A stretch of 58,040 nucleotides of DNA, taken from contig JBFLXJ010000001.1 of NCBI GenBank assembly GCA_040757085.1, positions 1-58,040 of the forward strand. The letters run 5' to 3'. Under the pieces are notes generated by a model. The model had not been told where the DNA came from, did not search any database, and saw only the letters and a list, made by a program, of their open reading frames with translations. How positions within the stretch are numbered: position 1 is the first letter of the stretch; each line of letters starts with the position of its first letter. The position numbers were made by a program, and so were the translations under genes. The DNA is from Bacillota bacterium. GTDB lineage: Bacteria; Bacillota; Sulfobacillia; JACIYH01. Positions 7,691 to 57,097 of the stretch are shown piece by piece.

Positions 7691-7696
7691 GACGCA

Positions 7697-7955
7697 AAGG
7701 CGATGAAGGGGAGGAGTAGGGCCGTGTCCCGCCCCAGAGAGGGGGATCCCTGGTTGCGAGGTCCCCTGACGGGAAGGTCCGAACGTCGCCCCCCAAGCAG
7801 TCCGGCCGAGCCGCGGGGGACATCAGCCCTGGCCGGTGTCCCCGGTGCCGTAGGTCGGACCGGGTTCTCCCGTTAACGAGAAGAGAGGGCTGCCCTGGCA
7901 GCAGCAAGGTGGTACCGCGGGCCTCTTCCGTCCTTGCACGGGAGAGGCCTTTCCC
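7697..7955 (+). promoter_or_regulatory. T-box leader of valS (specifier GTC, Val)
   Basis: A tRNA-sensing leader. Stem I starts at GATGAAGGGG (7702), has the AG-bulge sequence CAGAGAGGG near 7735, and on its descending strand carries GAAC-GTC-G, placing a Val codon GTC at 7785-7787 in the specifier loop. The conserved CGTTA block is at 7871-7875. A small linking hairpin GCTGCC-CT-GGCAGC is at 7889-7902. The T-box core GGTGGTACCGCGG is at 7908-7920, and a terminator follows. Uncharged tRNA-Val is expected to stabilise the antiterminator and allow valS transcription when valine is short. Confidence 0.9.
7920..7952 (+). terminator. Intrinsic terminator of the valS T-box
   Basis: GGCCTCTTCCGT (7920-7931) pairs with ACGGGAGAGGCC (7938-7949), apart from a C/A mismatch, around a 6-base loop, followed by TTT. 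It overlaps the end of the T-box core, so antiterminator and terminator are mutually exclusive. Confidence 0.85.
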
Positions 7956-50669: not shown

Positions 50670-51347
50670 ATGAGAGAGTTCGCTGTGCTGGGGTTGGGAC
50701 GCTTCGGGAGTGCAGTGGCCAAGGCCCTGTTCGAACAGGGACATTTCGTGCTGGGCGTGGACACCGACGAGGCGAAGGTGGCTGCCATCAGCCAGTGTTG
50801 CTCACGGGCGGTGCGGGCCGACGTCACCGACGAGGAGGCGCTGCGGGCGCTGGCCATCTGGGAGTACGACGCGGTCGTGGTGGCCATGGGCAACCTGCAG
50901 GTCAGCCTGCTTACCACCATCCTCCTCAAAGAGATGGGCACCAAGTACGTCATCGCCAAGGCCGCCTCGGAGATCCACGGAAAAGTGCTCCGCAAGCTGG
51001 GAGCGGACCGGGTGGTGTTCCCCGAGCGTGACATGGGGGTGCGGGTGGCCCGCAATCTCACCGCCTTCCGGGTGGTGGACCACCTGGAAGTGTCCCCCGA
51101 GTTCAGCCTCGTGGAACTCACCGCCGGCAAAGAAATGGCCGGCAAGACCTTACGCCAGCTCAGCCTGCGCGCTCGGTACGGGGTCAACGTCCTCATGATA
51201 AAAAAGGGCCAGGAGGCCACATATCTGCCTCTGGCGGACGAAGTGGTGAACGAAGGCGACGTGCTGGTGGTGGCGGGTCGCAACGAGGCGCTGGCCCGCT
51301 TCGAGAAGGTGCTGGAAGAGGCAGCCCGCGTCGGCCACCTTCCCTAG
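50670..51347 (+). CDS. ktrA: KtrA/TrkA-type potassium-channel regulator (RCK)
   Basis: 225 aa from the ATG at 50670. RCK_N Rossmann start FAVLGLGRFGSAVAKALFEQG with the acidic end of strand 2 (GVDTDEAKV), then RCK_C (about 140-220, EFSLVELTAGKEMAGKTLRQ; DEVVNEGDVLVVAGRNEAL). It binds ATP/ADP or cyclic dinucleotides and gates KtrB. 79 bases after ktrB; same operon. Confidence 0.94.
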   Translation: MREFAVLGLGRFGSAVAKALFEQGHFVLGVDTDEAKVAAISQCCSRAVRADVTDEEALRALAIWEYDAVVVAMGNLQVSLLTTILLKEMGTKYVIAKAASEIHGKVLRKLGADRVVFPERDMGVRVARNLTAFRVVDHLEVSPEFSLVELTAGKEMAGKTLRQLSLRARYGVNVLMIKKGQEATYLPLADEVVNEGDVLVVAGRNEALARFEKVLEEAARVGHLP

Positions 51348-51396
51348 CCCGCGTAGCCGGTGCCGCGATTCCAAATTTAGTGGACTTGCGTTTTCC

Positions 51397-51425
51397 TTGA
51401 CGGCTGCGACGGTCCGTCATATAAT
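51397..51425 (+). promoter_or_regulatory. leuS leader promoter
   Basis: TTGACG (51397-51402), 17-base spacer, perfect TATAAT (51420-51425). Transcription start near 51432. Everything downstream, including tRNA-Ala, should be on this transcript. Confidence 0.85.
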
Positions 51426-51687
51426 ACGGCTTGAACTGCATTAACGCGAACGGCCGTGATGGGGAGCAGTAGGCCGTGGCTGCCCGGTCAGAGAGCCGGT
51501 GGGTGGTGCAAACCGGTCGAGCGGCAGGCCGAACTCACCCCGGAGCCGATGCAGCGAAGGGCCCGTCGGGTGCGTGAGGGAATGAGCTGGCTTCCAGTTC
51601 ACCAGGTTGCCTCACGCGGGGATGCGGGAGGGCTCGGGTAGCTGCAACCGGGTCGATGCCCGTTACAGCCATGAGTGGATAAAGCGT

Positions 51688-51763
51688 GGGGCCGTAGCTC
51701 AGTTGGGAGAGCGCATGAATGGCATTCATGAGGTCGTGGGTTCGACTCCCATCGGCTCCACCA
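51688..51763 (+). tRNA. tRNA-Ala (anticodon GGC)
   Basis: Full cloverleaf of 76 bases including encoded CCA. Acceptor GGGGCCG/CGGCTCC with the alanine identity pair G3-U70; D arm GCTC/GAGC; anticodon arm CATGA/TCATG around loop ATGGCAT (anticodon GGC, reading GCC and GCU); T arm GTGGG/CCCAT with TTCGACT; discriminator A73. Every expected pair is present, so it should be a working tRNA. It lies inside the leuS T-box leader. Confidence 0.96.
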
Positions 51764-51805
51764 GAGTTTTTCTTGCTTTATCAAGCGGGGTGGTACCGCG
51801 GGAGG

Positions 51806-51836
51806 ATTCCCGTCCCCATGGGGGACGGGAATTTTT
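51806..51836 (+). terminator. Intrinsic terminator of the leuS T-box
   Basis: ATTCCCGTCCCC, loop ATG, GGGGACGGGAAT: a perfect 12-bp stem, followed by TTTT. It competes with the antiterminator formed by the T-box core at 51789-51801. Confidence 0.92.
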
Positions 51837-51887
51837 CGTAGCCAGGGCGGTTTTCCCGGGGTGCCCTCCATCAGGGGAGGTAGTGAG

Positions 51888-54401
51888 TTGGCCACGGGTT
51901 ACGAGCCTCACAGCCGCGAACTTTACTGGCTCGACCGCTGGGAAGAGTGGGACCTCTACCGGGCCGAGCAGGATCCTTCCCGGCCCAAGTATTACTGTCT
52001 GGAGATGTTCCCCTACCCGTCGGGCGACTTTCACATGGGTCACTCGCGCAACTACACCATCGGGGACGTACTGGCCCGCTTCCGCCGCATGAACGGGTAT
52101 AACGTGCTCCACCCCATGGGGTACGACGCCTTCGGTCTTCCCGCGGAGAATGCAGCTATCCTGCGGGGCATGCATCCCGCCCGGTGGACATGGGGGAATA
52201 TCGACAAGCTGCGCTACTGGTTCCGCCGCATGGGGTATTCCTACGACTGGGAGCGGGAGATATCCACCTGCCACCCGGATTACTATCGGTGGACCCAGTG
52301 GATGTTCCTGTTCCTGCACCGCCGCGGGCTTACCTACCGCGCCCGTGCTCCCGTCAACTGGTGCCCCCGCTGCGCCACCGTGCTGGCCAATGAACAGGTG
52401 GTGCAGGGGGGATGCTGGCGCTGCCACACCCCGGTGGTGAGGAAGGAACTGGAGCAATGGTTCTTCCGCATCACCGCCTATGCCGACCGGCTGCTGGAAG
52501 ATCTCAAGCTGCTGGATGGGTGGCCGGAGCGGGTGAAGGTAATGCAGGCCAACTGGATTGGGCGCTCCGAGGGAGCAGAAATCCGCTTCCCGGTGGAAGA
52601 ACTTGGCGAGGACATCACCGTGTTCACCACCCGGCAGGACACGCTGTACGGCGCGACCTTCATGGTCCTGGCCCCAGAACACCCCCTGGTCAAGCGGTTG
52701 GTGGCGGGTAAGCCCCATGAGGCTCGGGTGCTGGAGTTCGTGGCCGAGGCCACCCGGCGGCAGCAGCAACCGGATGAAGCGGTGGCCGAACGCCCCAAAG
52801 AGGGGATTTTCCTGGGCTCATACTGCCGCAATCCGGCCACCGGCGAACGGATGCCCATCTGGGTGGCCGATTACGTGCTCATGGAGTACGGGACGGGGGC
52901 GGTGATGGGGGTTCCCGCCCACGACCAGCGCGACTTCGAGTTCGCCCGCCAGCACGGGCTGCCCGTGCGGGTGGTCATCCAGCCCCCTGGAGGGAACCTG
53001 GATGGGGAGACCATGTCCATGGCCTACGACGGGCCCGGCGTCATGGTGAACTCGGGCCCCTTCGACGGGACTCCCAGCGAAGAGGGCAGGGCCCGCGTTA
53101 CGGCCTGGGGTCAGGAGCAGGGTTGGGCGCGGCCCGCCGTCCAGTACCGGCTGCGCGACTGGTTGGTATCCCGCCAGAGGTACTGGGGTGCACCCATCCC
53201 CGTGGTCTACTGCGAAAAGTGCGGCATCGTGCCCGTCCCCGAGGAAGATCTGCCCGTGCTGCTGCCCGAGGTGGTGGATTTCTCGCCCAGGGGCATGTCT
53301 CCCCTGGCCACGTCCCGGGAGTTCGTGGAGACCACCTGCCCCACCTGCCGGGGGCCGGCCCGGCGGGAGACGGATACCATGGATACCTTTGTGTGCTCCT
53401 CCTGGTACTACATGCGCTTCGTCTCTCCCCGCTACACGGCGGGGCCCTTCCAGAAGGAGGCGGCCTTCTACTGGCTGCCCGTTGACCAGTACACGGGCGG
53501 CATAGAGCACGCAGTGCTGCACCTCCTGTATTCCCGGTTCTTCACCAAGGTGCTGTACGACGCCGGGCTGGTCCCCGAGCCGGAACCCTTCCGCCGCCTG
53601 CTCACCCAGGGGATGGTGCTCAAGGACGGGGCGGCCATGTCCAAGTCGCGGGGCAACGTGGTGGAGCCGGGACCCATCGTGGAAAAGTACGGTGCCGATA
53701 CCGCCCGCATATTCGTGCTGTTTGCTGCCCCGCCCGAGAAGGAGATCGATTGGTCGGAGCGGGGCGTGGAAGGCGCCTTCCGCTTCCTGATGCGGGTGTG
53801 GCGCCTGGGCGAGGTGCGGCACGGCCTCTTCCGTCAGGTTTCCGGTGAGCCCGGGAGTGAGGTAGACAGCGCCGGGAGGGAGGTACGGCGCCTGGTACAC
53901 CGCACCATCAAGAAGGTCACGGAGGACGTGCGGGACCGCTACATGATGAACACGGCTCTGGCCGCCCTCATGGAGATGGTCAACGGCCTGTATGCGTACG
54001 TGGGCGAGGATCGCACCGGTGGCGACCCGGAGGTGGTGGCCGAGGCCCTTCACAGCCTGGCCCGTCTTCTGGCGCCGTTTGCGCCCTTCCTGGCGGAAGA
54101 AATGTGGCACCACCTGGGAGGGGACGGGAGCGTGCACAGGCAGCCGTGGCCTGCCTACGATCCTGCCCTGGTGGCGGTCGAGGAAGTGACCGTGGTGGTG
54201 CAGGTCGACGGGCGGGTGCGTCATCGCTTCCAGGCCCCGGCCGATGCCACCCCCGAGGACCTGGAGGCTCAGGCGCTGGCGGCACCGCGGGTGCGGCAGT
54301 TCCTGGCTGGCAGGGAGGTGGCCCGCGTGGTGACCGTCCCCGGCAAGCTGGTGAGCATCGCCACCGTCCCTCTGGCTGACAGGAGTAGCCGTTCTCCTTG
54401 A
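51888..54401 (+). CDS. leuS: Leucyl-tRNA synthetase
   Basis: 837 aa from a TTG at 51888 with GGGGAGGT seven bases upstream; an in-frame start nine codons earlier lies before that site. HIGH motif is HMGH at 49-52 (SGDFHMGHSRNY), the editing domain contains TTRQDTLYGATFMVLAPEHP, and KMSKS appears as AMSKS at 583-587 (first Lys replaced by Ala). Zinc-like Cys pairs: CPRCATV, CWRCH, CEKCG, CPTC. Length and domain order are normal. Controlled by the T-box upstream. Confidence 0.96.
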   Translation: MATGYEPHSRELYWLDRWEEWDLYRAEQDPSRPKYYCLEMFPYPSGDFHMGHSRNYTIGDVLARFRRMNGYNVLHPMGYDAFGLPAENAAILRGMHPARWTWGNIDKLRYWFRRMGYSYDWEREISTCHPDYYRWTQWMFLFLHRRGLTYRARAPVNWCPRCATVLANEQVVQGGCWRCHTPVVRKELEQWFFRITAYADRLLEDLKLLDGWPERVKVMQANWIGRSEGAEIRFPVEELGEDITVFTTRQDTLYGATFMVLAPEHPLVKRLVAGKPHEARVLEFVAEATRRQQQPDEAVAERPKEGIFLGSYCRNPATGERMPIWVADYVLMEYGTGAVMGVPAHDQRDFEFARQHGLPVRVVIQPPGGNLDGETMSMAYDGPGVMVNSGPFDGTPSEEGRARVTAWGQEQGWARPAVQYRLRDWLVSRQRYWGAPIPVVYCEKCGIVPVPEEDLPVLLPEVVDFSPRGMSPLATSREFVETTCPTCRGPARRETDTMDTFVCSSWYYMRFVSPRYTAGPFQKEAAFYWLPVDQYTGGIEHAVLHLLYSRFFTKVLYDAGLVPEPEPFRRLLTQGMVLKDGAAMSKSRGNVVEPGPIVEKYGADTARIFVLFAAPPEKEIDWSERGVEGAFRFLMRVWRLGEVRHGLFRQVSGEPGSEVDSAGREVRRLVHRTIKKVTEDVRDRYMMNTALAALMEMVNGLYAYVGEDRTGGDPEVVAEALHSLARLLAPFAPFLAEEMWHHLGGDGSVHRQPWPAYDPALVAVEEVTVVVQVDGRVRHRFQAPADATPEDLEAQALAAPRVRQFLAGREVARVVTVPGKLVSIATVPLADRSSRSP

Positions 54402-56828: not shown

Positions 56829-56866
56829 GCTGACGGGTAGCATCCTGATCACGGAGGAGCTACACC

Positions 56867-57097
56867 GTGAGCGAGCGAGTACGGGAAAGAGGCTGCTTGG
56901 ATCCGCAAGGACCGGGACAGGCGGACAAAAACCGGGCCTTTCTGCCTGTGACGGGCAGGAGGCTCTTTTTGTGCTCGGGGGCGCCTGAGCGGGTGGCCAA
57001 GTGCGGCCGCTGCCTTGTACGCCGGCTCGCGAACCCCTGCCTTGGGCGTCGGGTCGCGGGTCCCATGCTCGCCGCGGTGGCTCGAGGGGGGTTCTGA
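56867..57097 (+). CDS. Possible 76-residue Cys-containing leader protein
   Basis: GTG at 56867 is seven bases after a perfect GGAGGAG, and the frame ends one base before the transporter ATG. The product is basic, with Cys residues in the pattern CSGAPERVAKCGRCLV and a further Cys nearby. An intrinsic terminator at 56935-56970 lies inside it. It could be a translated attenuator or a chance frame in a structured leader. No family recognised. Confidence 0.35.
   Translation: MSERVRERGCLDPQGPGQADKNRAFLPVTGRRLFLCSGAPERVAKCGRCLVRRLANPCLGRRVAGPMLAAVARGGF
56935..56970 (+). terminator. Attenuator-like terminator in the ECF-transporter leader
   Basis: GGCCT-TT-CTGCC (56935-56946) pairs with GGCAG-G-AGGCT (the strand ending at 56964) around a short loop, followed by CTTTTT; AAAAA lies upstream. 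About 100 bases downstream of the promoter and 128 bases before the transporter ATG, so it would stop transcription unless relieved. Confidence 0.7.

Follow-up and report, generated by a model that had tools for sequence, protein, structure and literature searches.

A tRNA-Ala(GGC) gene nested in the stem III loop of a leucine-specific T-box leader

Upstream of leuS in a Bacillota genome, a complete gene for an alanine tRNA lies between the two halves of what reads as a leucine-specific T-box. Are the tRNA and the T-box one RNA, and if so, can such a leader serve both as a sensor of tRNA-Leu and as a source of tRNA-Ala? These questions were examined in the window, the 58,040-nucleotide stretch of contig JBFLXJ010000001.1 (assembly GCA_040757085.1) that was analysed, and in related genomes. 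We conclude, with a probability of roughly 0.8, that the leuS leader is a dual-function RNA: a Leu-specific, transcription-attenuating T-box and a constitutive tRNA-Ala(GGC) precursor hosted in its stem III loop.

Anatomy of the nested leader

The elements of the leader in the window are as follows.

51397..51425, + strand: sigma-70 promoter TTGACG-17-TATAAT (11 of 12 matches, against a shuffle mean of 0.1)
51447..51820, + strand: T-box leader (RF00230) from stem I to the antiterminator, with the tRNA gene interrupting stem III (covariance model)
51534..51536, + strand: Leu specifier codon CTC, within GAACTCACC (sequence and RF00230 alignment)
51673..51677, + strand: discriminator motif RRRxG, here GAGTG, 5' of stem III (sequence; motif as given in PMC7583486)
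51678..51685, + strand: stem III 5' arm GATAAAGC (RF00230 alignment, folding, covariation in relatives)
51688..51763, + strand: tRNA-Ala(GGC) gene with encoded CCA and G3:U70 (ARAGORN, RF00005)
51775..51782, + strand: stem III 3' arm GCTTTATC, followed by AA at 51783-51784 (RF00230 alignment, folding, covariation)
51789..51801, + strand: T-box core GGTGGTACCGCGG, with the TGGT bulge at 51791-51794 (sequence and RF00230 alignment)
51806..51836, + strand: intrinsic terminator ATTCCCGTCCCC-ATG-GGGGACGGGAAT-TTTT (sequence and fold)
51861..54401, + strand: leuS, leucyl-tRNA synthetase ORF, with a GTG start at 51861 (TIGR00396, 1038 bits)

A sequence-only reading of this DNA had proposed a complete tRNA-Ala(GGC) gene with CCA in the leuS leader, and both ARAGORN and RF00005 (65.4 bits) place the gene at 51688-51763. 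The Leu T-box that the same reading described is genuine. RF00230 matches the leader at 87.6 bits (E 9.5e-20) over model positions 1-219, the full length of the model, and the CTC specifier, the core, and the 12-bp terminator are all in place. The specifier agrees with the amino acid of the downstream gene, leuS, and stem I carries the AGTA motif. In the RF00230 alignment the tRNA occupies the stem III loop, between the GAGTG and AA discriminator motifs, which bears out its proposed location inside the loop of a linking hairpin. That hairpin is here named stem III and, according to PMC7583486, is an integral part of the T-box discriminator and more than a linker. The leader of the window has the RRRxG-stem III-AA discriminator pattern in the form GAGTG-GATAAAGC ... 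GCTTTATC-AA. The terminator hairpin (51806-51832) consists of 12 bp and a 3-nt loop and is followed by T4. Its 5' arm overlaps the 3' arm of the antiterminator in sequence, alignment, and fold, and the two compete. An automated terminator scan of the leuS leader region did not list this terminator. A TTG at 51888, preceded by GGGGAGG, is a plausible true start of leuS.

Because 87.6 bits falls below the Rfam gathering score of 93 for RF00230, a default Rfam scan misses the leuS T-box; the tRNA insertion is most likely the cause of the sub-threshold score. The minimum free energy of stem III with the tRNA is not significant (z -1.36), and covariation was therefore used instead. In the valS T-box of the window (7694-7938), stem III is short and plain. 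The 2-base loop once ascribed to it is a gap within a 6-bp palindrome; a real loop would have 4 nt. There are 12 T-box matches in the genome of the window, and a tRNA lies inside only one. The window also holds a pan motif (RF01749, 45.3 bits) at 56834-56924, a cis-regulatory RNA of pantothenate genes.

Judged by promoter position, the leader is a single transcription unit. A promoter scan with shuffles found no second promoter in 51340-51900, TTGACG-17-TATAAT being the sole one. Among the listed loci, a sigma-70-type promoter precedes the T-box in 95 of 115, against 10.4 in shuffles, and stands at a median distance of 197 nt 5' of the tRNA. A promoter between stem I and the tRNA occurs in 7 of the 115 (1.8 expected), and one between the tRNA and the core in none. 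Separate transcription units are rejected, since a promoter between the tRNA and the core is absent from the window and from all 115 listed relatives. The sequence-only reading had named two observations that would speak against nesting: a transcript start between the tRNA and the core, and relatives in which tRNA and T-box are separate units with another linking hairpin. No promoter was found at the first position in the window or in the listed loci (0/115), and in the relatives the two arms of stem III, on either side of the tRNA, show covariation. The promoter position likewise supports the proposal that the leuS promoter drives the tRNA, which is reached before the terminator.

Conservation, structure, and descent

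In a DNA search of 60 relatives, the tRNA and the T-box core match together as a single block, followed by leuS, in genomes of many families. The arrangement was then defined as a pattern, any tRNA T-arm 20-50 nt 5' of a T-box core, and scanned for in one genome per species, which gave at least 120 stretches. In the window's class the pattern occurs in 34 of 154 genomes, in one of them (L210) without a tRNA. The species scan and the window's class together yield at least 135 tRNA-bearing loci, at least 128 of them distinct. The isotype is tRNA-Ala(GGC) in 135 of the 135 listed loci that have a tRNA over the T-arm, and no other tRNA was found in stem III of a T-box among the matches listed, though the pattern allowed any tRNA T-arm. 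leuS follows the core in nearly all listed loci; most of those lacking a LeuS match end too early to tell, and one (L132) has more than 1 kb behind the core without one. As a control, the pattern read backwards gave 0 matches in the 518 genomes scanned. Chance coincidence is rejected because the nested arrangement is conserved, with the same isotype and the same stem throughout these loci and no backward match. Thirteen pattern hits lack a tRNA (L076, L077, L080, L091, L112, L121, L129, L141, L143, L151, L156, L167, and L210); they were taken to be chance matches or ordinary T-boxes and excluded. Two loci followed by leuS (L085, L122) were left out of the counts, ARAGORN having found no tRNA in the available sequence.

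By the labels of the sequence records, the matches listed come from Bacillota, Chloroflexota, Thermomicrobiota, Armatimonadota, Coprothermobacterota, Caldisericota, and Actinomycetota. The Bacillota among them include Syntrophomonas, Thermosyntropha, Desulfofundulus, Desulfovirgula, Pelotomaculum, and MAGs labelled Thermaerobacter and Symbiobacterium. In the LeuS tree, nested loci labelled as a Proteobacteria MAG and a Desulfovibrio MAG fall within other groups, and they are probably mis-binned. Of 63 genomes from the class of Syntrophomonas palmitatica, 53 contain the pattern, as do 31 of 301 drawn from the phylum of a Thermomicrobiaceae genome.

The relatives also retain the T-box around the tRNA. 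RF00230 matches 30 of 30 related loci tested and spans the tRNA in 29, the exception being L208; scores range from 34 to 121 bits, with 9 of the 30 above the gathering score and 21 below. The stem III arms pair with a mean helix score of 15.9 within a locus, as compared to 11.4 when arms of different loci are combined (200 permutations, sd 0.22, highest 11.98). In 96 of the 127 distinct loci listed, RRRNG and AA immediately flank a helix of 4-12 bp, and in these 96 loci GC, AT, TA, CG, and GT pairs interchange at equal positions of stem III. The remaining 31 of the 127 do not fit this strict anchor. The length and sequence of the stem III loop and the spacing from the tRNA to stem III vary freely among the listed loci. 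Of the related leaders, 122 extend far enough to be assessed for the specifier context AACTC[AG], which 113 of them contain. Nearly all related cores read GGTGGTACCGCG, although the scan pattern itself selected for such cores. The 3' arm of the antiterminator was found in 128 of 128 listed distinct loci. In a simple scan, a terminator-like hairpin with at least 5 T was seen in only 73 of the 128, so some members may use another output. Leaders without a nested tRNA (L257, L263, L270) have an ordinary hairpin as stem III.

Individual leaders depart from this plan. One leader (L252, genome G028) carries about 75 nt of extra sequence between the tRNA-Ala and the 3' arm of stem III, across which GATAAGGC and GCCTTATC still pair. 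The extra segment has a T6 run as well as inverted repeats (CTGCTG/CAGCAG and GGCGGGCCCGCC); it may be a small mobile element or a further terminator within the T-box. In nested leuS T-boxes of Coprothermobacterota and Caldisericota (L090, L113), stem I is much shortened, with CTC and tRNA-Ala kept. In three loci of the window's class (L254 in G017, L258 in G052, and L259 in G036), stem I and the TGGN core are lost, and tRNA-Ala(GGC) and the terminator remain before leuS; the contig of L254 begins within the tRNA, and the stem III arms of L259 are still recognisable despite the decay. Eight Chloroflexota loci (L101, L147, L148, L158, L164, L177, L179, L188) carry a second alanine tRNA, tRNA-Ala(CGC), just 5' of stem I, giving the order tRNA-Ala(CGC) - stem I - tRNA-Ala(GGC) - core - leuS.

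In a LeuS tree built with FastTree only, nested leaders occur on two sides, one of Chloroflexota, Armatimonadota, and Thermomicrobiota and one of Bacillota; the state changes at least 16 times over the 132 rows. Either an old origin or a joint spread of leuS and its leader, with losses afterwards, would fit this pattern. LeuS proteins of nine genomes in the window's class (G038, G005, G088, G089, G010, G035, G051, G091, G092) group with those of Chloroflexota and Armatimonadota, which suggests transfer of leuS, sometimes with the nested leader.

Such a history could also be that of a passenger: a tRNA that landed once in a tolerant loop, was inherited with leuS as the only copy, and has no regulatory meaning. 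The single isotype in all listed loci points to one origin, the loop varies freely, and the three decayed T-boxes keep their tRNA, all of which is as expected for a passenger. However, the association is stable across deeply separate LeuS clades, and some Chloroflexota have gained the additional 5' tRNA-Ala(CGC); together these suggest that there is at least an advantage in a shared leader. A tRNA devoid of regulatory meaning is thus a serious possibility that we hold to be somewhat less probable than its opposite, and the main parts of this explanation are compatible with the dual-function leader.

The nested tRNA and the proposed working of the leader

The nested tRNA is under selection as an alanine tRNA, to judge from its sequence across the loci. 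The G3:U70 alanine identity pair is found in 128 of 128 listed distinct loci and the full acceptor stem in 127 of 128. No tRNA-Ala(GGC) besides the nested gene was found in the genome of the window, and the other tRNA-Ala found there has the anticodon CGC; this inventory rests on loci from genome searches of a draft assembly that is 98% complete in 34 contigs. In the single-contig genome G025, the nested copy is the sole GGC, with CGC and TGC elsewhere, and one genome (G044) has a further, divergent tRNA-Ala(GGC) besides the nested one. GCC and GCT, the codons read by tRNA-Ala(GGC), make up 192 of 304 Ala codons (63%) in seven ORFs of the window. The conservation across phyla, the unvarying isotype, the sole genomic copy, and the extra upstream tRNA-Ala(CGC) of some Chloroflexota had escaped the earlier reading.

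The ends of the nested tRNA resemble those of other tRNAs. CCA is encoded in about 99 of 128 listed distinct loci and absent from about 29, in which it must be added after processing. Position -1 is T in 94 of the 128, the base described as optimal for RNase P in PMC9433436. Nested and free tRNAs are alike in their -2/-1 dinucleotide (GU in 63 of 125 nested versus 38 of 90 free), so that the nested tRNA resembles any usual substrate of RNase P. The idea that nested copies carry a special leader for slow RNase P cleavage (G-2 U-1) is rejected, as this dinucleotide is not enriched in them, and the RNase P leader dinucleotide of the nested tRNAs holds no signature of delayed processing.

These data allow a mechanism to be proposed for the dual-function leader. 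Transcription would start just 5' of the T-box and would always pass the tRNA before reaching the terminator; tRNA-Ala would thus be made whatever the charging of tRNA-Leu. With the base of stem III, GAGTG, and AA intact, the discriminator should be able to form while the tRNA projects from the end of stem III. When tRNA-Leu is charged, termination would leave a short tRNA precursor, and when it is uncharged, polymerase would read through into leuS. The tRNA would be released later by RNase P and 3' processing, with CCA addition where it is not encoded, and this cut would part stem I from the leuS mRNA. That excision separates stem I from the antiterminator, as had been pointed out earlier, follows from the anatomy in the RF00230 alignment. 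About 75 nt separate the end of the tRNA from the end of the terminator, a distance transcribed in a second or two. Given this short distance, processing probably takes place mostly after the attenuation decision. In Staphylococcus aureus, according to PMC4608709, prematurely terminated leuS, valS, serS, and glyS leaders are detected as RNAs, and RNase Y cuts the valS, leuS, and serS leaders between stem I and the T-box sequence. By analogy, a cut in that interval, to which S. aureus leaders are normally subject, would be compatible with T-box function.

Processing might itself be regulatory. RNase P and 3' processing could compete with antitermination or later shape the 5' end of the leuS mRNA, so that leuS expression would respond to tRNA-maturation capacity as well as to tRNA-Leu charging. 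The cut would necessarily separate sensor from output, the S. aureus leuS and valS leaders are cut in the same interval (PMC4608709), and the nested arrangement is kept across phyla. On the other hand, nested tRNAs do not have a GU leader more often than free ones do, and the spacing from tRNA to stem III varies freely. A regulatory role for processing is regarded as unlikely. The same low standing applies to the related proposal that maturation of the nested, non-cognate tRNA-Ala gates the output of the T-box, processing determining how long the sensor or the leuS message persists. If gating did occur, production of tRNA-Ala would be coupled to the control of leucyl-tRNA synthetase in one RNA kept across several phyla.

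The sequence-only reading had further suggested that the ACCA of the unprocessed tRNA-Ala pairs in cis with TGGT in the core, which would bias the switch. ACCA (51760-51763) is indeed complementary to TGGT (51791-51794) in the window, but A73 and CCA are general features of tRNAs and the complementarity is expected anyway. Moreover, the encoded ACCA is missing from 29 of 128 listed distinct loci, and the 3' end of the unprocessed tRNA is extended rather than free, whereas the T-box bulge reads a free uncharged NCCA end (PMC7583486). Pairing in cis is therefore very improbable. Least credible of all is a dead T-box in which only the tRNA and the terminator matter: the decayed loci L254, L258, and L259 in the window's class are exactly such relics, but the window and most other loci retain the specifier, stem I, the TGGN core, the antiterminator arm, and also stem III.

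Relation to known leaders and meaning

On every testable feature the leader belongs to the T-box family; the nested gene and its conservation are new. It shares with RF00230 leuS leaders the AGTA stem I, the CTC specifier, a stem III flanked by RRRxG and AA, the TGGN core, an overlapping terminator, and the cognate synthetase downstream. It differs in that the stem III loop, a short hairpin loop in ordinary leuS and valS leaders, is here a complete tRNA gene for another amino acid. It is known that tRNA genes can share a transcript with an mRNA, from which RNase P and 3' processing cut the tRNA out, and the nested tRNA resembles such tRNAs in that it would come from the transcript of a protein gene. 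In contrast to these, it lies inside a structured regulatory RNA, between sensor and switch and before a regulated terminator. One review (PMC7583486) finds "curious" the insertions, of unknown function, that occur in all domains of T-boxes, and mentions stem III insertions in translational T-boxes. These likewise place extra sequence in stem III, but the insertion described here is an apparently functional tRNA gene in a T-box with a long stem I and a terminator. The RNase Y-cut valS, leuS, and serS leaders of S. aureus are also severed between stem I and the T-box sequence; there, by PMC4608709, the cut is made by an mRNA-decay enzyme, whereas tRNA-processing enzymes are predicted to make it here and to release a stable product. 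The literature searched, in the parts available, holds no mention of a tRNA gene in a T-box; an earlier mention in Vitreschak 2008 or Gutierrez-Preciado 2009 is possible.

Some of the "curious insertions" described for stem III of T-boxes (PMC7583486) find a natural explanation in the nested leader. Many nested T-boxes are missed by default Rfam scans, as were the 21 of 30 loci that scored under the threshold. The arrangement is a ready system for studying co-transcriptional RNA switching against RNA processing, and it is accessible in culturable species such as Syntrophomonas wolfei and Desulfofundulus. For the organisms themselves, the supply of a tRNA for most alanine codons is tied to a leader that controls leucine charging. 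For the family, a riboswitch can host the complete gene of another stable RNA within its own switching structure, apparently still working, and keep it for a long time.
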